A stretch of DNA of 64,000 nt, from contig NZ_BOOQ01000007.1 in the NCBI RefSeq assembly GCF_016863315.1, forward strand, positions 1 to 64,000, in the 5' to 3' direction. A model generated the notes under the pieces. It saw nothing but the letters and a program-made list of their open reading frames with translations, did not search any database and had not been told where the DNA came from. The position numbers and the translations under genes are program-made. This stretch comes from Planotetraspora silvatica. Lineage in GTDB: Bacteria > Actinomycetota > Actinomycetes > Streptosporangiales > Streptosporangiaceae. The first letter of the stretch is position 1. Every line of letters begins with the position of its first letter. Shown piece after piece: positions 30,479 to 56,168 of this stretch.

Positions 30479-31653
30479 CCGCGCTCGCCACCCGGGAACG
30501 GTCGCCGCGGCTGCTGCAGTACATCTCGTTCGTCAGCACCCTCGACCGGTTCTCGATGCCCCCGATGCTGATCGCGATGGCCCGCGACCTCGGGGCGCCG
30601 CTGTCGGCGGTGGTCAACGCGGCCGGCGTCTACTTCCTGCTGTACGGGCTCATGCAACCGCTGTGGGGGATGGTCTCCGACCGTCTGGGCCTGGTCAGGA
30701 CCATGCGGATCGCGTTGCTGCTCGCGGCGGTCTGCTCGACGGCTGCCGCCTTCGCCGAGTCGGCGCTCAGCCTCGGCGTGGCCAGGGGACTGGCGGGGGC
30801 GTGCTTCAGCGCCGCGGTCCCCGCGAGCCTGATCTACATCGGCGACACGGTTCCCGCCCACCGGCGGCAGCGGGAGGTCACCGGCCTCATGACGGGCGTG
30901 GCGCTGGGCACGGCGATCGCCTCGACGGGCGCGGGTGCGCTGGCCCAGTTCGCGAGCTGGCGGATCGCGTTCGTCCTGACCGGGGTCATCTCGCTGCTGC
31001 TCGTGTTCGCGCTCGGACGACTTCCGCAACCGGCGCTCGTCCGGGCGCACGCCAGCCTCCTCGCCCCGCTGGTCGCCGTCGCCCGCTCCGGGCCCACGCG
31101 GCTCGTGCTGGTGCTGGCTTTCGTCGAGGGAGCCGTCCTGCTCGGTTCGCTGACGTTGCTCCCCCCGGCCGTCGAGGCCGCGGGTGTGAGTGCTTCCGTC
31201 GCCGGTGCCGTCACCGCCGTGTACGGTGTTGCCGTACTGGGGTTCGCCCGTGTGGTCGGTGTGTTGTCGCGCCGCACGCACGCGTCCCGGCTCATCGCAC
31301 TCGGAGCGCTCGCCGCCGCGGCCGCATGCGGGCTGACCGCCCTGTCCCGCTCGCCGGGCATGGCACTGGTCGCCGCGGGTCTACTCGGCCTCGCCTGGGC
31401 CTCGATGCACTCGTCGTTGCAGACCTGGGCGACCGAGGTGTTGCCGGAGGCTCGTGCGACGGTCGTGTCGGCCTTCGCCGGGGCGCTGTTCCTCGGCAGT
31501 GCCGTCGCCGCGGTGCTCGTCGGGGGCCTCGCGGAGAGCCACAGGTACACGGAGATCTTCGGCCTTGCGGCGGCTCTCGCCGTACCGCTCGGCCTGTTCG
31601 CCACGCTGGGACGCAAGCGATGGATCCGACCTGAAGGAGAACCCGGTCGATGA
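30475..31653 (+). CDS. MFS transporter
   Basis: A 392-residue protein with twelve likely membrane segments, starting at ATG 30475 overlapping the upstream stop. The N-terminal half contains STLDRFSMPPMLIAMARDLG and the loop motif GMVSDRLGLVRTMRI, the MFS A-motif. It may import the pathway substrate or export an intermediate. The gene lies between the cytosolic binding-fold protein and the LacI regulator in one tightly overlapped operon. Confidence 0.87.
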   Translation: MTALATRERSPRLLQYISFVSTLDRFSMPPMLIAMARDLGAPLSAVVNAAGVYFLLYGLMQPLWGMVSDRLGLVRTMRIALLLAAVCSTAAAFAESALSLGVARGLAGACFSAAVPASLIYIGDTVPAHRRQREVTGLMTGVALGTAIASTGAGALAQFASWRIAFVLTGVISLLLVFALGRLPQPALVRAHASLLAPLVAVARSGPTRLVLVLAFVEGAVLLGSLTLLPPAVEAAGVSASVAGAVTAVYGVAVLGFARVVGVLSRRTHASRLIALGALAAAAACGLTALSRSPGMALVAAGLLGLAWASMHSSLQTWATEVLPEARATVVSAFAGALFLGSAVAAVLVGGLAESHRYTEIFGLAAALAVPLGLFATLGRKRWIRPEGEPGR

Positions 31654-32729
31654 GACCCAACCAGCCTTCGTTAACCCCTGCCGGGGAGGTCAAGCGGGCT
31701 CAGCCTCCCACCCTCCGGGACGTCGCCGAGGCGGCGGGGGTGCACGCCGCCACCGCTTCACGTGCCCTGAACCCGAGCACGCGACGGCTCGTCAGCGCGG
31801 AGACGGCCAGGCGGGTGATCAAGGCGGCCAAGACCCTCGGCTACCAGCCCAACCCCATCGCGCGGAGCCTGAAGACCGCCAAGTCGAGCACGGTCGGCCT
31901 GGTCATCCCCGACCTGACCAACCCGCTGTTCCCGCCGATCGTCCGGGGGATCGAGGACGTCCTCGAGGCCGAGGGCTTCAGCGCCTGGATCGTCAACACC
32001 GACAACGATCCGGAGCGTGAGCGCGCGCGCATCGACTCCCTTCGCTCCCGGCAGGTCGAGGGCCTCATCATCGCCACCGCACGGGTCGACCACCCGTTCC
32101 TCGAGGCGCTGCACGAGCAGGGCGTCAAGATGGTGCTCGTCAACCGGCGGGTGGAGAACCTCGAGGTCCCGTATGTGACGGCCGACGACGCCACCGGCAT
32201 CGCGCTCGCCGTACGGCATCTGGCGGATCTCGGGCACAGGCGGATCGCCCATCTGGCCGGCCCGCAGGGGACCTCCACGGGCGTCGTGAGGTCGAGGGCG
32301 TTCCGGCACGCCATCCGTGACCACGGACTGGAGGACGATCCGTCCCTCATCGTGGAATGCGCCCGCTGGAACGAGGCCGACGGGGCCACCGCGATGCGCG
32401 AACTGCTCGATCGGGACGACCGGTTCACGGCCGTCGTCGCCGGCAACGACCTGATCGCGCTCGGCTGCTACGACGTGTTCGCCGAGCGGGGCATCTCCTG
32501 CCCGGACGAGATGAGCGTGGTCGGCTTCAACGACATGCCCTTCATCGACAAGCTGCGCCCGCCGCTGACGACGGTCGGGGTGCCGCACAACGACATCGGC
32601 GCCGAGGCCGCACGCATGTTGCTCGACTGCATCGAGGAGCCTGAGCGGCGTCCGAGGTCGCTCCTCCTCCCCGTGACGATGGTCGTCCGGGACTCCACCA
32701 CCCACCCCCGCCCCCTCCCTTCGCCGTGA
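31650..32729 (+). CDS. LacI-family transcriptional regulator, probable master repressor of the catabolic island
   Basis: A 359-residue protein from ATG 31650, ATGA-coupled to the MFS gene. An N-terminal extension of about 19 residues precedes the LacI helix-turn-helix (TLRDVAEAAGVHAATASRAL) and hinge helix (PNPIARSLKT); the rest is the sugar-binding-like effector domain starting VGLVIPDLTNPLFPPIV. It is the best candidate for binding the GCAAnCGnTTGC sites at 2630, 21628, 22818, 29406 and 29486. Its last codons run into a Pro-rich tail and the stop codon TGA is supplied by the first copy of the 53-bp repeat array. Confidence 0.9.
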   Translation: MRPNQPSLTPAGEVKRAQPPTLRDVAEAAGVHAATASRALNPSTRRLVSAETARRVIKAAKTLGYQPNPIARSLKTAKSSTVGLVIPDLTNPLFPPIVRGIEDVLEAEGFSAWIVNTDNDPERERARIDSLRSRQVEGLIIATARVDHPFLEALHEQGVKMVLVNRRVENLEVPYVTADDATGIALAVRHLADLGHRRIAHLAGPQGTSTGVVRSRAFRHAIRDHGLEDDPSLIVECARWNEADGATAMRELLDRDDRFTAVVAGNDLIALGCYDVFAERGISCPDEMSVVGFNDMPFIDKLRPPLTTVGVPHNDIGAEAARMLLDCIEEPERRPRSLLLPVTMVVRDSTTHPRPLPSP

Positions 32730-32949
32730 TCATGCACACCTTCGTGAATGTGGGCTCTGACGTGCCTCCATCGCGGGCGTGATCATGCACACTTTCGGCC
32801 GCATCACCTCTGACCTGGGCCCATTTCGCGCGTGATCATGCACGGATTCGTGTGCGGCGGCGCTGACCTGGGCGTGCGCCGTGCGTGATCATGCACGGAT
32901 TCGCGGGGGAGGCCGCTCGCCTGCGGGTCCTTCTTTCGTGATCATGCAT
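32726..32949 (+). repeat. 53-bp periodic array, five copies, forward orientation
   Basis: GTGATCATGCAC starts at 32726, 32779, 32832, 32885 and (ending in T) 32938, each exactly 53 bp after the last. Within each unit a downstream TTCG and, in several, CTGACCTGGG are also conserved, while the rest drifts. The copy at 32726 contains the stop codon of the LacI gene. The same family occurs in reverse at 33968-34138 and in both orientations at 54943-55315. Confidence 0.93.
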
Positions 32950-33007
32950 TCGGGGGCCGCCCCTCGCCGCGCGAGGTAACCGTCCCTCCGGTAGCGCTGT
33001 CAATGGA

Positions 33008-33865
33008 ATGAAATATGGCGTTTTTCCCGATCTGCTACTTTTGTCCGCCCAGCCGCCTTGTGCATCTGACTACGTGAAAGCGGTGTGGTCTCCCATGGGT
33101 GACATCGGTGTGGACGGCCTGGCCGATGGGGCGGCGAAGGCGCTCCTGCTGGCCTTCGAAAAGTTGCTCACGGCAGGCTGGGGGGTGGACAGCCCGCGAG
33201 GGGAGCACGGCACCCGTCTGATCACCTCCGGCATTCCGCTGCCCCACCTGAACGGCGTGTTCACCGAGAGCCGCGACCCCGATGTCGACGAGGTCGCCGA
33301 GTTCGCCCACCGGATGACGGCGAGTGCCGTCCCGTGGAGCATCCAGGTGCGCGGCGAGCCTGCTCCAGAGCTCGTCGAGGTGGCCGCGCGTTTCGGGCTC
33401 ACCCACCGCATGCGCCTTCCGCTCATGGCGATGCCGGCGACACCGGTGGCGCTCACTTCGGGGGACCACTCGATCCGGACGGTCGACGGGAAGGATCACG
33501 ACATCTATCGCGACGCTCTCGCCGCCGGTTTCGAGGCTCCCGTGGACATCATGGCGGCGCTGGCCCAGCCGGAGATCCTGGACATGCCAGGCGCGACCGC
33601 CTATCTCGTCGAAGCGGACGGAGAACCGGTCTCAACGGGATTCGGCATCCTCGTGGGGGACCATGTCGGGGTGTTCAACGTCTCGACCCCGCCGCGCCAC
33701 CGGCGCCGCGGGTACGGCAGGGCCGCCACCGAGGTGGTCATGCGGGACGGGTTCGCCGCCGGCGCGCGTGTGGCGTTCCTTCAGGCCAGCTCCGACGGTC
33801 TGCCCCTCTACGAACTGCTCGGCTTCCGCGTCGTCGAGACCTGGACCTACTTCCAGCACGGCTGA
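33008..33865 (+). CDS. GNAT-fold N-acetyltransferase
   Basis: A frame of up to 285 residues; ATG 33095 (256 residues) is an alternative start and neither has a strong ribosome site. The C-terminal half contains the acetyl-CoA binding motif A of GNAT enzymes (VFNVSTPPRHRRRGYGRAA) and ends LLGFRVVETWTYFQ. The N-terminal half is a second, more divergent GNAT-like half. The acceptor substrate is unknown. The gene is the only one between two opposed 53-bp repeat arrays (32726-32949 and 33968-34138), which makes its link to them worth testing. Confidence 0.8.
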   Translation: MKYGVFPDLLLLSAQPPCASDYVKAVWSPMGDIGVDGLADGAAKALLLAFEKLLTAGWGVDSPRGEHGTRLITSGIPLPHLNGVFTESRDPDVDEVAEFAHRMTASAVPWSIQVRGEPAPELVEVAARFGLTHRMRLPLMAMPATPVALTSGDHSIRTVDGKDHDIYRDALAAGFEAPVDIMAALAQPEILDMPGATAYLVEADGEPVSTGFGILVGDHVGVFNVSTPPRHRRRGYGRAATEVVMRDGFAAGARVAFLQASSDGLPLYELLGFRVVETWTYFQHG

Positions 33866-33967
33866 CTCGCCGGCCGGGCGTACAGGGCGTCAGCGCCTGA
33901 TTCGGCCGGCCGGACGCGCCGGTCCGCTCGACGGAGCGGCGCCCCCTGCCTTGCCGTACGGTCACAC

Positions 33968-34138
33968 GTGCATGATCGCGCATGCCGTACGGCCAGGTCG
34001 GCGTGGGTTTCCGCGAAGGTGTGCATGATCACGCGGGGGGTCCGGCCAGGTCGGAGTGGGTTTCTACGAATCTGTGCATGATCACGAACGGGGTGTGGCC
34101 AGGTCAGGGGGGATACACCCGAATCTGTGCATGATCAC
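33968..34138 (-). repeat. 53-bp periodic array, four copies, reverse orientation
   Basis: GTGCATGATCAC (reverse complement of the motif in the forward array) starts at 33968 (GTGCATGATCGC), 34021, 34074 and 34127, exactly 53 bp apart. Between copies GGCCAGGTC, GTGGGTTTC and CGAA are conserved, matching the complement of the forward units. The array closes an inverted pair around the GNAT gene. Confidence 0.93.
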
Positions 34139-34180
34139 GAGCAAGAGGGGCGGCTGGCTCGGGCAGGGTGGGGGCGAGCA

Positions 34181-34234
34181 TTGACAGGGCAATCCGTCGG
34201 GGTCATTCTGCTCGGGCTGGGCAAATCGTTTTGC
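34181..34234 (+). promoter_or_regulatory. Promoter and long LacI-type operator of the sugar dehydrogenase gene
   Basis: TTGACA (34181-34186) and CATTCT (34204-34209) are 17 bp apart. GCAAATCGTTTTGC (34221-34234) follows the predicted start point. It is one base pair per half longer than the GCAAnCGnTTGC sites, so it may belong to another LacI protein, such as the TetR-LacI fusion two genes on. Confidence 0.68.
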
Positions 34235-34287
34235 GATAGACCAGGCGGAGACGGCCCGGTCTGACGAACAAGCTGAAAGGAGAACGC

Positions 34288-35175
34288 ATGACCGACCAAC
34301 CGCGTCGCGTTCTGGTGACCGGCGCGGCCGGCAGGCTGGGGCGGGCGGTGCTCGACCTGCTCGCCACGCGCGGCGTGCCCGCGACCGCGCTCGACCTGCG
34401 GGACCCGGGAGGGCTCCCCGCCGACCGCGTGGTGGCCGCCGACGCGGGCGATCCCGTGGCCGTGCGCGAGGCGCTCGACGGGGTGGACGCGGTGGTGCAC
34501 CTGGGGGCGATCCCGGCGCCCAGCCTGGGCACACCGGAGGAGGTCTTCTGCGGGAACACGAGGGCGACGTTCGTCGTGCTCGAGGAGGCGGGCGCCCTGG
34601 GCGTGCGCAGGGCGGTCATCGCCAGCAGTTTCTCCGTGCTCGGCCTGCCGTGGGCCTCCACGCTCCTGCATCCGGCGTACGTGCCGATCGACGAGGCGCT
34701 TCCCCTCCAGGTGGAGGATCCGTACGGACTGTCGAAGCAGGTGGACGAGGCGACGGCGGCGATGGTGGCCAGGCGCCATGGCATGGCCGTCGTGGCCCTG
34801 CGCTTCCCGCTGCTCGGCGGTCCCGGAGACAAGTTCGGCAAGACCGTCGCCCGCTATGCCGAGGATCCGGGCTCGGGCGCCAAGGAGTTGTGGACCTACC
34901 TCGACACCCGTGACGCCGCCCTGGCCTGCTGGCTGGGACTGACCCGCCCCTTCGAGGGATACCACGCGGTCTTCGTCGCCGCCCCGACCACATTGGCGGC
35001 CCAGCCGACGGAGGAGCTCATCGGCCGGTTCCATCCCCAGTCCGAGCAGCGCGCGCCGATCCCGGGCCGGGCCGTGCCCATCGACCTCAGGGTGGCCGAG
35101 CGCCTGCTGGGCTTCGCCGCCCAGCACCCCTATCCCGTCGACACAGCGAAGGATCAGGAGGCCGCAGCCTCCTGA
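34288..35175 (+). CDS. NAD-dependent epimerase/dehydrogenase (extended SDR, uronate-dehydrogenase-like)
   Basis: A 295-residue protein from ATG 34288 behind AAAGGAGAAC. VLVTGAAGRLGRAVLDLLA is the extended-SDR Rossmann motif; Ser in VIASSFSVLGL and the pair YGLSK complete the Ser-Tyr-Lys catalytic set. The short length and the LHPAYVPIDEALPL segment resemble sugar or uronate dehydrogenases rather than nucleotide-sugar epimerases. It lies next to a sugar regulator, a glycosidase and a sugar importer, so it probably acts on a released sugar or uronic acid. Confidence 0.8.
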   Translation: MTDQPRRVLVTGAAGRLGRAVLDLLATRGVPATALDLRDPGGLPADRVVAADAGDPVAVREALDGVDAVVHLGAIPAPSLGTPEEVFCGNTRATFVVLEEAGALGVRRAVIASSFSVLGLPWASTLLHPAYVPIDEALPLQVEDPYGLSKQVDEATAAMVARRHGMAVVALRFPLLGGPGDKFGKTVARYAEDPGSGAKELWTYLDTRDAALACWLGLTRPFEGYHAVFVAAPTTLAAQPTEELIGRFHPQSEQRAPIPGRAVPIDLRVAERLLGFAAQHPYPVDTAKDQEAAAS

Positions 35176-35223: not shown

Positions 35224-36996
35224 ATGTCCCCCGAAGGCCGATCGGTCGCGCGGCGCGAACGGAAGAAGGCACAGACCCGCGAGGCGATCGTCGCGGCGGC
35301 CTTCAGGCTGTTCGCCGAGCGTGGATTCGACACGGTGACCGTGGCCGAGATCGCCGACGCGGCGGACGTCTCGGCGAAGACGGTCTTCAACCATTTCGCG
35401 GCCAAGGAGCAGTTGTTCTTCGAGGGTGAGCCGCTCCTTCACGGTGAGCCGGGCGCGCTGGTCGGGAGCCGCGCGTCCGGCACCACCGTCGGGCAGGCGA
35501 TCGAGGGCGTGTTGCCCGGCTCGGCGGACCAGGCGTCCGACGCTCGTGACCAGGCGACATGGGCGCGTGTCTACGCGGGCAGCCCCGCTTTGCGCGCGTA
35601 CGCCCGGGAGTCGTTCTCCAGGTGGGAGGGCGACCTGGCCGGCGTGATCGAGGCCGAGTTCGGCGCGCGTCCCGGCACGCCTTCGCCCGGGGTCGTGGCG
35701 GCGGTCGTGCTCGCCGCGGTCCGCGAGGTCTGGGAGTCGACCCTGGCCGCCATCGCCGGGGGAGCCCCGCCCGACGAGGCGGTCGCGGAGGGGAGGGGGC
35801 GCCTCGCCGCCACCTTCGTCACCCTCGCGCCCGTCATGCCCGAACGGGGGTCCCTCGCGCCCGTCATGCCCCTCGTGCCCCCGGAGTCCGCAGAAGGCGA
35901 CGCGGCCGTCGTACCCCCGGCGTCCTCCCAAAGTGACACGGCCGTCGTGCCCCCGGTGCCCGGCCAGGGTGCGGCCGCCGCCATGCCCCGGGCCCCCCGG
36001 GGGGAACGGCCCAGCATCACCCGCGTGGCCGAACTGGCCGGAGTCAGCGCGACCACCGTGTCCCACACGCTGAACGGCCGCAGGCCCGTCGCCGAATCGA
36101 CCAGGCGGCGTGTGCTCGACGCGATCGAACGGCTCGGCTACCGCCCCAACGTGCTCGCCCGTGGCCTGCGGACCAGCAGGAGCCAGACGATCGGGCTGGT
36201 CATCCCCGACATCACCAACCCGTTCTACCCGGCGCTCGCCCGCGGCCTGCAGGACGTCCTGGGCCCGGCGGGTTACGACGAGATCATCAGCAACACCGAC
36301 GGCGACCGCGACCTGGAGCGGGCGGCGATCGAGCAGATGATCGCCAGGCAGGTCGACGGGCTGGCCTTCGCGGTGTTCCACACGCACGCCGAGGACCTGC
36401 TGCCCGCCATAGAGGCGGGCATCCCGGTGGTACGGCTCGGCGGCCGGCTCGTTCAAGAGGGCGTCGACGTGGTGCACAGCGACGACGAGGGCGGGGCCGC
36501 CGAGGCCACCCGCTACCTGCTGGCGCGCGGCTACCGCAGGATCGGGTTCGTCTGCGGCCCGCGGGCCGAGGGACCGGCGGCCGAACGTGTGGCGGGCTAC
36601 CGCGCCGCGCTGGCCGAGGCCGGGGCGCCCGCCGACCCCCGCCTCGTCGTGCACACGCACTTCAGCAGGTCCGGCGGCCAGGAGGGCGCGGCCGTGCTGC
36701 TGGACCTGCCGGAGCCCCCCGACGCGGTGTTGTGCGCCAACGACATCATGGCGATCGGCGCCCTCGAGACGGCGGCCCTGCGCGGGCTGCGCGTTCCGGA
36801 CGACCTGGCCGTGATGGGGTTCGACGACATCGAGGCCGCGGGTCTCATCTCGCCCGGCCTGACCACGATGGCGAACCCGGCACGCGAGATCGGCCAGGCA
36901 TGCGCCCGCCTGCTCCTCGACCGGTTGTCCGGCCGGGCCGAGGGATATCGCGAAGTGGTCATCCCCGCCCGGTTCGTCCGGCGCCAGTCGGCCTGA
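35224..36996 (+). CDS. TetR-LacI fusion transcriptional regulator
   Basis: One uninterrupted 590-residue frame. Residues 17-62 are a TetR helix-turn-helix (REAIVAAAFRLFAERGFDTV, then VSAKTVFNHFAAKEQLFF) and 63-200 a TetR-like ligand domain. A Pro/Val/Ala-rich linker (about 201-262) follows. Residues 264-312 are a LacI helix-turn-helix and hinge (SITRVAELAGVSATTVSHTL, PNVLARGLRTSRS), then a full effector domain beginning GLVIPDITNPFYPALARGL. Both halves have normal length for their families. An internal ATG at 35983 could also make the LacI half alone. The possible -10 TAAGAT at 35211 is 7 bases before ATG 35224, so the message may be leaderless. Confidence 0.88.
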   Translation: MSPEGRSVARRERKKAQTREAIVAAAFRLFAERGFDTVTVAEIADAADVSAKTVFNHFAAKEQLFFEGEPLLHGEPGALVGSRASGTTVGQAIEGVLPGSADQASDARDQATWARVYAGSPALRAYARESFSRWEGDLAGVIEAEFGARPGTPSPGVVAAVVLAAVREVWESTLAAIAGGAPPDEAVAEGRGRLAATFVTLAPVMPERGSLAPVMPLVPPESAEGDAAVVPPASSQSDTAVVPPVPGQGAAAAMPRAPRGERPSITRVAELAGVSATTVSHTLNGRRPVAESTRRRVLDAIERLGYRPNVLARGLRTSRSQTIGLVIPDITNPFYPALARGLQDVLGPAGYDEIISNTDGDRDLERAAIEQMIARQVDGLAFAVFHTHAEDLLPAIEAGIPVVRLGGRLVQEGVDVVHSDDEGGAAEATRYLLARGYRRIGFVCGPRAEGPAAERVAGYRAALAEAGAPADPRLVVHTHFSRSGGQEGAAVLLDLPEPPDAVLCANDIMAIGALETAALRGLRVPDDLAVMGFDDIEAAGLISPGLTTMANPAREIGQACARLLLDRLSGRAEGYREVVIPARFVRRQSA

Positions 36997-52916: not shown

Positions 52917-53999
52917 ATGCCAAAGGGGCGAAAAATCCTCATCCTGAGCGCCGCCATGGGGGCCGGGCACGACGGCGTCGCCGCCGAACTCAGCCGACGG
53001 CTGGCCGCCGAGGGCGTGGAGGCCGAGGTGGTCGACATCCTGCGGCTGCTCCCGCTGGGCCTGGGATCGTCGTTGCGCCGTGGCTACGGCTGGATGATCC
53101 GTTCGGCGCCGTGGTTGTACGCCGCGATCTACAAGATCTTCTTCGTGTCGGAGAGGGCTCCGACGACCTCGCCGCTGACCCTTCTGGCCGCCGGGCCGCT
53201 CCGCGAGCTCGTCCGGCTCCGCGCCCCCGAGGCGGTCGTCTCGACGTTTCACCTGGCCGCGCAGGTCACGGGTCACCTGCGCGAACGGGACCGGCTCGCC
53301 GTACCGAGCGTGGTCATCGTCACGGACTTCGCCGCGCACCGGTTGTGGCTGCATCCCGGGAACGACAGGTACCTGTGCGGCGACGCCGTGACGGCCCTCG
53401 TCGTCGCGGAGGCGACGGGGCGGCCCGCGTTCTGTCACGCCCCGCTCGTCCGGCCCGAGTTCCTGAAGCCGGCTGCCGACATCGCGCGGGCGCGTGAGCG
53501 GCTCGGCATCCAGGAGGGCGACCGGCCGGTGCTCGTCTCCGCCGGGGCCTGGGGCGTGGGGCGGGTCGAGGAGACGGCCCGCGTCCTGGCGGCGTCCGGC
53601 CGCTATCTTCCCGTCGTCCTCTGCGGGCGGAGCGACCGTCTCCTGCGCCGCCTCCGGGACGCCGGAACGGGGCTGGCCCTCGGCTGGTGCGACGACATGG
53701 CCGACGTGTTCGCCGCCGCGTACGCGATGGTGGACAACGCGGCCGGCCTGACCTGCAGGGAGGCGTTCGCCGCCGGGGTGCCGGTCGTGTCCTACCGGCC
53801 CATCGCGGGGCACGGGCGCGACGGCGCGCTCGCCATGGCGCGGTCGGGCCTGAGCGTTTACGCGCGGAACGCGGCCGAGCTCATCGGGGCGCTCGACCGC
53901 CTCGACGGCACACCCGAGCGCGCCCGGATGATCGCCAGAGGGGCCGCGCTGTTCAGCGCTGCGTCCGCCGAATCTCTTCTGGGTCGTCCACCCGGATGA
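52917..53999 (+). CDS. MGDG-synthase/MurG-like glycosyltransferase (GT28)
   Basis: ATG 52917 behind AAGGAAGG gives 360 residues. ILILSAAMGAGHDGVAAELSRRL is the N-terminal nucleotide-binding strand with the GAGH motif of monogalactosyldiacylglycerol synthases, and the C-terminal VDNAAGLTCREAFAAGVPVVSYRP is the sugar-nucleotide binding part. This family transfers sugar to diacylglycerol or other lipids at the membrane. Its end overlaps the convergent DMT transporter gene by 47 bp. With the deacetylase it may modify an envelope glycolipid. Confidence 0.85.
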   Translation: MPKGRKILILSAAMGAGHDGVAAELSRRLAAEGVEAEVVDILRLLPLGLGSSLRRGYGWMIRSAPWLYAAIYKIFFVSERAPTTSPLTLLAAGPLRELVRLRAPEAVVSTFHLAAQVTGHLRERDRLAVPSVVIVTDFAAHRLWLHPGNDRYLCGDAVTALVVAEATGRPAFCHAPLVRPEFLKPAADIARARERLGIQEGDRPVLVSAGAWGVGRVEETARVLAASGRYLPVVLCGRSDRLLRRLRDAGTGLALGWCDDMADVFAAAYAMVDNAAGLTCREAFAAGVPVVSYRPIAGHGRDGALAMARSGLSVYARNAAELIGALDRLDGTPERARMIARGAALFSAASAESLLGRPPG

Positions 54000-54843
54000 C
54001 GTCGTGACCCAGGATGGCGGCCGAGCGCGAGAGCAGCACGCTGCCCAGGAGGATCACGCCGATTCCCACGAGTTCCGGCACCACCCAGGGGCCCGTCCTG
54101 ATGTCCTCGCCGAATAGGGCCACGCCGTAACCGGTGCTCGCCACCGGATCAGTCACGGTGAGCGCCGGCTGGACGGCGACGAGCGACGAGCGCTGCAGGG
54201 CGTTCTGCAGGAGGAAGACGCTGCACAGACCCGTGGCGACCATGGTGTAAAGGGACCACGTGGTCAGCACGGCGGGCGGATTCCTCTCCAGCACGTCGAT
54301 GGTCCGCTTCATCAGCACCGCGGTGTAGGCGAAGCTGAGCCCGGCCGCGATCCCGAGTGCCACGCCGCGAAGCCCGCTGCCGGCGACCATCCCGACCGCG
54401 ACCGCCAGTGTCACGAGCCCTGCCGTGACCGCCGCGGAGATCACCCAGCCCAGGAGGCCGGGCAGCCGGTCGGCGTTGGCGGGGGCGGCCGCGATGAGGA
54501 AGATGGCGAGGCCCACGGTCAGGGCGCCGACGGCCAGCCACGACTGCCGCCCGAGCCGGATCTTGAACATCCACGCGGCGATGAGCATCGTGACGGGCAA
54601 CTCCACGACGAGGAGGGGTTGCACGAGCGCGAGCCCGCCGAAGCCGAGCGCGGTCGCCTGGAAGAGGAAGCCGCCGATGAGGGCCAGGATGCCGAGGAGC
54701 CACGCCGGGCGCCGGATCAGGTCCCACATCAACGCCAGGCGGAACGCCTCACTCGCCGGGACGGATCGGGCGGCCTTGCGCTGCAGCACGGAGGCGATGG
54801 CGTTGCACACCGCCGCCAGAAGTGCGAGAGGAACAGCGATCAT
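53953..54843 (-). CDS. DMT/EamA-family membrane transporter
   Basis: ATG 54843 gives 296 residues; the frame further up to 54984 enters the repeat array. About nine to ten membrane segments fit the drug/metabolite transporter superfamily with its two repeated halves. The opening IAVPLALLAAVCNAIASVLQRKAAR is common in the actinobacterial members annotated DMT family transporter. The substrate is unknown. Its last 47 bp overlap the end of the glycosyltransferase gene. Confidence 0.85.
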   Translation of the reverse strand: MIAVPLALLAAVCNAIASVLQRKAARSVPASEAFRLALMWDLIRRPAWLLGILALIGGFLFQATALGFGGLALVQPLLVVELPVTMLIAAWMFKIRLGRQSWLAVGALTVGLAIFLIAAAPANADRLPGLLGWVISAAVTAGLVTLAVAVGMVAGSGLRGVALGIAAGLSFAYTAVLMKRTIDVLERNPPAVLTTWSLYTMVATGLCSVFLLQNALQRSSLVAVQPALTVTDPVASTGYGVALFGEDIRTGPWVVPELVGIGVILLGSVLLSRSAAILGHDVIRVDDPEEIRRTQR

Positions 54844-55337
54844 GACGTGGCCCCCGGATTCCGCGTCCGCTGAGGGAGCAATACCCCCCGAATGGCTCCC
54901 CCCACGAGCAGATACCCCATGACCTGCCCAAACCCCTCCGCCGTGATCATGCACAGGTTCGTGGATGTACGCACTGACCAGCACCGATGCCGAGCGTGAT
55001 CATGCACGGGTTCGTGGATATGTGCGCCGACCAGCGCGGACGGCGTTCCTGATCATGCAATGTCTCGGGTCGGTTGTACGGCGGCCGTGGGGGATTGTGA
55101 TCGAGTCGTGGAAGGCGACACCTCGGGATGGGGTGCCGCCCTCCGTGCATGATCACGACGCTCGTTCGAGCAGGTGAGAGGGTATGCCGCCGAATCTATG
55201 CATGATCACGATGCGCGTATGCGCAGGTGGGACGGTGTTCTCCCGAAAGTGTGCATGATCACGGCTGGGGTTTGGTCTGGTCGAGGGGCATGATCTCGAA
55301 CCTGTGCATGATCACGCGGGAAAGGGGGGGTGGGGGG
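54844..55337. other. 494-bp intergenic stretch occupied mostly by head-to-head 53-bp arrays
   Basis: The first 100 bp are the upstream region of the DMT transporter gene. The rest is the array at 54943-55315, followed by a 22-bp gap to the stop of the ABC permease. No gene is seen; open frames here are fragments with stops imposed by the repeats. Confidence 0.85.
54943..55315. repeat. 53-bp periodic arrays, three forward then four reverse copies
   Basis: Forward GTGATCATGCAC starts at 54943 and 54996, with CTGATCATGCAA at 55049. After an 85-bp centre, which holds a weak reverse copy near 55093, reverse GTGCATGATCAC starts at 55145, 55198 (first base A), 55251 and 55304. Every step is 53 bp. 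The forward copies again have TTCGTGGAT and CTGACCAG or CCGACCAG downstream, and the reverse copies have CGAA upstream, as at 32.7-34.1 kb. Confidence 0.93.
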
Positions 55338-56168
55338 TTAGCCGCGGGCTAGGCGGGGGAGTAGGGCCGAGGCGATGACGATCATGACGATGGCCGACAC
55401 GAGCAGTACGCCGAAGTCGAGCAGGAGCCTGGCGGAGGTGCCGACCAGCAGTCCCCGCAGGGCCTCGACCTCGTAGCTCAGCGGGTTGATGTGGTTGACC
55501 ACCTGCAGCCAGCCCGGCATGAGCTGCACGGGGTAGAGCGCGTTCGACGCGAAGAACAGCGGCATCGTGATGGCCTGCCCGATGCCCATGAGCCGGTCCC
55601 TGGACAACACCAGGCCGGCGATGGTGATCGACAGGCAGCAGAAGAACGCCGACCCCAGCAGCAGCGCGGCGACCAAAGCGATGATCTTGAGCGGGTTGGT
55701 CGCGAGATGCACGCCGAGGATCAGCGCGAGGACGAGCACGACGACGGCCTGGGCCACGGCGCGAACTCCGGCCGCGAACGCCTTGGCCCCGACCAGCGCG
55801 ATCCGCGGCGTGGGCGTCACCAGCAGCTTGGCGAGCACGCCCGCGTCGCGCTCCCAGATGATCTGGATGCCGTAGAAGATCGCGATGAACAGCGCGGACT
55901 GCGCGAGGATGCCGGGAGCCAGGAAGTCCAGGTACGGAGTCGAGCCGGTCGGGATCGCCCGGATCCGGGTGAACACCTGGCCGAACACGAGCAGCCACAG
56001 AGCGGGCTGGACGGCCCGGGTGACCAGTTCCGTCCGGTCGTGACGGAGTTTCTGCAACTCGACCAGGCAGGTCGTGGCGATCCGCGAGGCGACGGTGCGG
56101 GCCAGGGCGAGTGGTCCGGGTTCGGTCTCAGCCGACGCGGCGGGCGGTGCGACGGGCAGCGCGGACAT
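55338..56168 (-). CDS. ABC-2-type exporter permease (DrrB-like)
   Basis: A 276-residue protein starting ATG 56168 and overlapping the ATPase gene by 41 bp. About six membrane segments follow an Ala/Pro-rich N-terminus; QPALWLLVFGQVFTRIRAIPTG and NALYPVQLMPGWLQVVNHINPLSYEVEALR are typical of daunorubicin-resistance DrrB-type permeases. With the ATPase it forms an exporter of drugs, lipids or polyketides. It is the last gene of a MarR-controlled operon. Confidence 0.9.
   Translation of the reverse strand: MSALPVAPPAASAETEPGPLALARTVASRIATTCLVELQKLRHDRTELVTRAVQPALWLLVFGQVFTRIRAIPTGSTPYLDFLAPGILAQSALFIAIFYGIQIIWERDAGVLAKLLVTPTPRIALVGAKAFAAGVRAVAQAVVVLVLALILGVHLATNPLKIIALVAALLLGSAFFCCLSITIAGLVLSRDRLMGIGQAITMPLFFASNALYPVQLMPGWLQVVNHINPLSYEVEALRGLLVGTSARLLLDFGVLLVSAIVMIVIASALLPRLARG

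Follow-up and report, generated by a model that had tools for sequence, protein, structure and literature searches.

Polar motif arrays at 53-bp steps with inward-facing arms lie near gene ends in Planotetraspora and are candidate boundary elements

We analyzed a 64,000-nt stretch of Planotetraspora silvatica DNA (assembly GCF_016863315.1, contig NZ_BOOQ01000007.1; hereafter the window), in which a gene encoding a GNAT acetyltransferase lies between two arrays of a 12-bp motif that run toward each other (Table 1). The five copies before the gene and the four inverted copies after it, each set at exact 53-bp steps, had been described in a first-pass annotation of the window, and the motif starts confirm this arrangement. 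Four of the five left-arm copies read exactly GTGATCATGCAC and the fifth reads GTGATCATGCAT; on the right, three of four are exact and the copy at 33968 reads GCGATCATGCAC, making two one-mismatch copies among the nine across both arms. The gene upstream, which encodes a LacI-family regulator, has as its stop codon the TGA inside the first left-arm motif, and a gene for an NAD-dependent epimerase/dehydratase follows the right arm. The protein encoded between the arms contains acetyltransferase domains only, and its mechanically called open reading frame could start as early as 33008. The same arrangement around the GNAT gene is found in genomes G002–G004 and is thus common to four species. With up to three mismatches allowed, the window contains 109 matches to the motif, against 47 ± 7 in shuffled sequence. 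Beyond the epimerase gene, the window also encodes a 590-aa protein (35224-36996, + strand) that joins an N-terminal TetR helix-turn-helix (residues 22–67) to a complete LacI-family repressor, itself composed of a helix-turn-helix (265–309) and a sugar-binding domain; open reading frames of similar length occupy the orthologous place in G001–G004.

Table 1 Motif arrays and neighboring genes in the window
Feature	Position	Strand	Details
LacI-family regulator gene, upstream of left arm	31650..32729	+	
Left arm, five motif copies, exact 53-bp steps	32726..32949	+	starts 32726, 32779, 32832, 32885, 32938
GNAT acetyltransferase gene, between arms	33095..33865	+	Pfam Acetyltransf_1, E=1.1e-6
Right arm, four motif copies, exact 53-bp steps, facing inward	33968..34138	-	starts 33968, 34021, 34074, 34127
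NAD-dependent epimerase/dehydratase gene, downstream of right arm	34288..35175	+	
EamA gene, one flank of second element	53953-54810	-	
Second element, left arm	54943..55060	+	copies 54943, 54996, 55049 (last: 2 mismatches), 53 bp
Second element, right arm	55145..55315	-	copies 55145, 55198 (1 mismatch), 55251, 55304, 53 bp
ABC2_membrane gene, other flank of second element	55338-56168	-	

The window holds a second element of this kind (54943-55315), additional to the one that brackets the GNAT gene and absent from the first-pass annotation. Genome-wide, such elements are abundant. Genome G000 (8.66 Mb, 117 contigs) carries 698 exact copies of GTGATCATGCAC (360 and 338 by strand) and 0 of the reversed pattern used as a control; at about four to five copies per arm pair, this corresponds to well over 100 elements. 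Within the Planotetraspora DNA examined, which consists of stretches of genomes partly picked for holding the motif pair rather than of whole genomes, 603 of 640 same-strand neighbor distances of 170 bp or less fall at 52–54 bp (552 at 53, 43 at 52, and 8 at 54). The 53-bp regularity is a property of the genome, and it is also common to relatives. Where two arms meet closely, their start-to-start distance is often exactly 23 bp, with unrelated bases between (16 cases). In G001 the variant GTGATCATGCAG is the main form, and at the G001 ortholog of the window locus, which lies at a contig end (L130), the motif forms a 21-bp tandem array of GGCCAAGGGGTGCATGATCAC with about five copies, some of which read GTGTGTGATCAC.

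The consensus of 355 non-redundant units consists of C-GTGATCATGCA, TTC at positions 15–17, and YGACCTG at positions 32–38, with the next motif beginning at 53. Conservation within the two blocks is high (at least 99% for T16 and C17, 94% for C36, and 97% for G38), and the TTC and GACCTG blocks are present solely between motifs, each arm being closed by a bare motif. The unit had been described as a 12-bp motif followed by a drifting spacer; this is mostly accurate, but the description passes over the two conserved blocks.

The same annotation proposed that selection keeps both the motif and its spacing, and comparison among species bears this out. Between index-matched, syntenic units of orthologous elements (44 unit pairs, from arms of equal length), we counted 2 indels and 378 substitutions, compared with 76 indels and 1146 substitutions in 65-bp windows of array-free gaps from the same species. 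The corresponding indel-to-substitution ratios, 0.005 and 0.066, represent a 12-fold depletion (Fisher p=1.9e-7), and because indels are depleted in orthologous units relative to array-free gaps, the spacing itself is under selection. BLAST searches with single units were rejected as an indel test, since they align paralogous units with gaps. Substitution rates, calculated from a looser unit set, are 0.06 per site in the motif versus 0.26 in the spacer; the sequence of the spacer is thus free to change, whereas its length is not. Units gained and lost through recombination stay in register, and this process must add to the regularity; the scarcity of indels within orthologous units is not explained by it. 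Nor are the arrays ordinary minisatellites with highly similar whole units, as mean spacer identity between non-redundant units is about 50%. MIRUs are actinobacterial intergenic tandem repeats of similar length; by description, the arrays are set apart from them in conserving solely the motif and short blocks, and in having inverted arms. No reading frame runs through the array units, since 53 is not a multiple of 3.

Helical phasing had been offered as the reason for the 53-bp step. This distance does amount to about five turns of the helix, which leaves phasing possible, but unproven: other spacings show no significant phase (p=0.13), and we found no significant 10.5-bp periodicity in the conservation profile. 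As a general rule phasing can be discarded on the basis of these other spacings and of another family in which the step is mostly 37–38 bp. Because other families use other unit lengths, it is a possible cause in the Planotetraspora group only.

Arm orientation is strict. Among arms less than 450 bp apart, 81 pairs face inward ('><') and 0 face outward ('<>'). The two arms of an element also tend to match in length (rho 0.47, p=9e-6), being equal in 45 of 80. Array-bearing gaps in G000 comprise 10 of 57 convergent, 13 of 174 tandem, and 2 of 81 divergent gaps, based on gene calls from a simple codon-usage script rather than a published gene finder, which entails some error in distances and gap classes. 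In 26 of 102 arrays that come after a co-directional gene, the motif's own TGA is the stop codon. Most gene ends are without arrays. Single arms in tandem gaps follow the upstream gene about as often as they oppose it (18 versus 13), so the arms are not simple gene-end signals. At one locus in Planotetraspora phitsanulokensis (L018:568-1526), a three-motif array lies directly 3' of argR and ahead of argH.

As around the GNAT gene, single arms can face inward across one or two genes, which we observed at 10 loci versus 1 with outward arms. The bracketed genes, named from their translations, include typA, cobS/cobU, cobD, fdhD, and those for an aldehyde dehydrogenase and a P450; typA and fdhD each account for two of the ten loci, from different species. 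It was this bracketing that could suggest the ends of a mobile unit, a proposal that the wider survey does not support. Elements occupy conserved loci in G003 and G004, and in G001 wherever this could be tested; the one exception is a G003 gap that is differently occupied. Unit numbers vary between species. The bracketed genes are unrelated to one another and are ordinary chromosomal genes; many arms have no gene between them, two-armed elements usually being gene-free; the GNAT arrangement is common to four species; and transposases of the tested type (Y1) do not accompany it. We thus give next to no credence to the idea of a mobile cassette with the GNAT gene as cargo and the arms as its ends. 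A phage origin was discarded as well, as IMG/VR contains no 53-bp motif pair.

In a scan of 84,980 species genomes for motif pairs at a 53-bp step, every one of the matches listed was from Planotetraspora. Per genome, the five species of the window's genus have 127–679 such pairs, G085, which is placed in its own genus, has 389, and four species of genus g86 have 1–9, with 0 in the other 65 genera sampled within the family. Genomes with arrays in g86 include G144, G210, and G239, and those without include G123 and G163. Arms in g86 start with GTGATCTTGTAGTTTGTCGC, followed by GTGATC(A/T)TGCA units at about 53 bp; the motif in this genus is often GTGATCTTG, which is not self-complementary, and the 53-bp spacing is kept. 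Reduction has occurred within Planotetraspora, too: many units have been lost in G002, where several loci keep a one-plus-one inverted pair or just a hairpin, and no single common alternative replaces the arrays. Exact 53-bp spacing is thus a feature of the Planotetraspora group and g86.

The core of the motif, CGTGATCATGCA, is amplified more widely. It occurs 288 times in G331 (3.1 Mb), 287 times in G390, 100 times in G538, 35 times in G329, 29 times in G449, and 22 times in G372, compared with 0–6 in nearly all other genomes and 0–1 per strand for the reversed control, and the amplified genomes belong to at least four actinobacterial families besides that of the window. All 27 placeable loci in 400 kb of G331 are intergenic, 13 in convergent and 14 in tandem gaps, with 0 in the 39 divergent gaps. 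Two-armed loci in this genome again face inward (7 '><' and 0 '<>'), several start in a stop codon, and single arms in tandem gaps follow the upstream gene in 5 cases versus 7 in which they oppose it. Inward polarity, gene-end siting, and stop-codon overlap therefore recur in at least one unrelated family; unit lengths in G331 vary, with 37 commonest and others of 23–58 and about 130. Independent amplification of the same 12-mer is seen at individual loci of G390 (L204–L209; units of 49, 35, and 38) and G331 (L242–L261; units of 37, 45, 30, 23, and about 130). A further form is found in family f33 (L184–L192 in G372 and L215–L216 in G357), which has 60-bp inverted repeats, GTGATCATGCAGTT...AACTGCATGATCAC, in convergent or tandem gaps; their inner sequences differ between the two genera, and the core dyad centers are about 52 bp apart.

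Dispersed intergenic repeats of the REP/BIME type are among the closest precedents for this distribution. These repeats number in the hundreds between genes, where they form inverted pairs and clusters; they lie in tandem and convergent gaps and close to 3' ends, and it has been suggested that they act in supercoiling, termination, and mRNA stability (PMC3733652, PMC2817692). Actinobacteria are not among the phyla given for them (PMC3733652). The arrays share this intergenic siting, yet they fail on the features that define REP/BIME: a REP unit forms a palindromic stem-loop and bears a GTAG or CGTC tag, neither of which the array unit possesses, and the arrays are polar, strictly spaced at 53 bp, and arranged in strictly inward arms. 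Mobilization of REPs by RAYT was discarded because its domain (Y1_Tnp, PF01797) is absent from most carriers, namely G000, G002–G004, G085, G331, G390, G372, and G538, and is present only in G001 and G144. It could still be that the arrays are an old repeat of this general kind, spread long ago by copying, tolerated at places where promoters and coding regions are not harmed, with little function, and growing or shrinking by unequal recombination between motifs. Such an origin would accommodate the REP-type siting (PMC3733652), the unit numbers that vary between species, and the patchy occurrence in distant families. It does not account for a 12-fold depletion of indels in spacers that are about half identical, for elements fixed at orthologous loci, or for the lack of a stem-loop unit and, in nine carriers, of a Y1 transposase, and we consider it unlikely. 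We found no description of a 53-bp array element in the open-access literature and no described family that fits, in keeping with the first-pass statement that no actinobacterial element of this form was known.

The location of arrays after stop codons raises the possibility that they act in the transcript, as terminators or 3'-UTR RNA signals. Two loci in G002 and the f33 family have strong hairpins at positions that carry arrays in other genomes or at sites of that type, and in the 100 nt that follow the stop, strong stems are found in 12% of cases with arrays versus 43% without. Across whole convergent gaps, however, hairpins are equally common with arrays (46–50%) and without (49%), so the deficit in the first 100 nt reflects occupancy; the arrays do not substitute for hairpin terminators and are not obviously needed as terminators. 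The left arm has a predicted fold (z=-2.6), which is partly due to self-complementarity of the motif, a property often missing in g86. Watson-Crick covariation was absent from the 355 non-redundant units, and Rfam covariance models gave no match to positions 32600-34300 up to E=1. Selection is unlikely to target RNA structure, given the absence of covariation and a g86 motif that often lacks self-complementarity yet keeps its 53-bp spacing. Moreover, RNA would have no need of a fixed 53-bp spacing, and in tandem gaps the arms that oppose a gene are about as numerous as those that follow one. Overall, we see little chance that the arrays are RNA signals.

If the arrays are instead read as DNA, the identity of the reader becomes of interest, and one lead points to the arginine repressor. 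Among Streptomyces coelicolor fragments shifted by ArgR in electrophoretic mobility shift assays, one box, SCO5864, is CTCTCCGTGATCATGCACCC (PMC5839063 Table 1), and it contains the core CGTGATCATGCA letter for letter as well as the array consensus C-GTGATCATGCAC. This box came from a literature text search with 26 matches, in which those listed were mostly primer-like and the ArgR table alone was relevant, and a chance match is possible; the independent part of the test is a model of the ARG box. Using a model of 35 boxes, with two motif-like boxes removed, we ranked loci across 400 kb of G000 and found that 33 of the top 100 fall on array motifs, which make up 0.3% of positions, and that the dyad of TGATCA lies at the ARG-box center in 33 of these 33 (offset 0). 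For sixty column-permuted models, the number of top 100 loci on array motifs averaged 1.1 and never exceeded 23.

The likeness to ArgR operators thus includes the register of the core with the ARG-box dyad, as well as the single G001 array in which the motif recurs at 21 bp. The differences are substantial. Arrays lie away from arg promoters, in hundreds of copies, and are strictly polar, and where ARG boxes form contiguous pairs at 20–21 bp center to center, the arrays step by 53 bp; motif pairs at 20–21 bp are rare in the Planotetraspora DNA examined. The argG gene of G000 has a canonical ARG box, TTGCATGGTCATGCATTA, and the array site has a G (99%) at a position where this operator has an A. 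Because of this substitution, and because array sites are not contiguous 20–21 bp pairs, plain ArgR is a doubtful binder of the arrays. The invariant G, the polarity, and the spacing are all unlike known ARG boxes, and the putative binder is as likely to be an ArgR relative, or an unrelated protein of similar taste, as ArgR itself.

Our leading, though tentative, reading is that the arrays are intergenic boundary elements, composed of arrayed polar sites for a putative, possibly ArgR-like protein and insulating transcription units from one another. From sequence patterns we infer protein binding, an ArgR-like binder, and insulation that would be transcriptional or topological. Each arm would be a row of polar sites for one sequence-specific DNA-binding protein, which would recognize the core CGTGATCATGCA and may make secondary contacts at TTC and GACCTG, and the 53-bp step would set a fixed geometry in which adjacent bound proteins touch. 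Arms facing inward from both sides of a gap could then let the protein build a nucleoprotein block that separates neighboring transcription units, mostly between convergent genes or at a gene's 3' end, and that would sometimes surround just one gene, as with the GNAT gene. We favor a protein–DNA assembly because the sites are polar, spaced, and paired at gene ends; pairing into a hairpin is disfavored since an RNA or DNA hairpin would allow '<>' as well as '><'. An architectural protein or an insulator, both of which the first-pass annotation had put forward, appears on these sequence grounds to be the best class of explanation.

Besides an old REP-like repeat, the main rival to boundary function is a site for folding the chromosome, at which a nucleoid protein would bridge the arms and affect transcription only indirectly. 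Such a role is compatible with the dispersal of the elements over well over 100 loci, with inward-facing arms of matched length, and with fixed spacing. The coupling of arrays to gene ends, and to stop codons in particular (26 of 102), would be unexpected for purely structural sites, and we regard this alternative as quite unlikely.

Oriented short sites, partly arrayed near gene ends, are known from Ter-Tus, from the eukaryotic Reb1/TTF-I terminator arrays, and from convergent CTCF sites. Their likeness to the arrays lies in inward orientation; we offer the comparison as one of working principle, having identified no homologous protein or site. It is possible, if on the doubtful side, that boundary elements of the kind we propose form a system present in at least five actinobacterial families, in which a polar protein, perhaps a repurposed ArgR relative, insulates transcription units. 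Such a system, with inward-facing arrays and lineage-specific unit lengths, would follow a logic similar to that of convergent CTCF or Reb1 sites.

The dispersed repeats of bacteria are as a rule palindromes or minisatellites in decay, whereas the arrays conserve, across many gaps, a 12-bp site together with its direction and the distance that separates it from the next site. A natural comparison is at hand in the array-rich genomes, the congener G002 in which most arrays have been lost, and related species without any. If a protein reads the arrays, they would be a general means by which actinobacteria mark the boundaries of transcription units.
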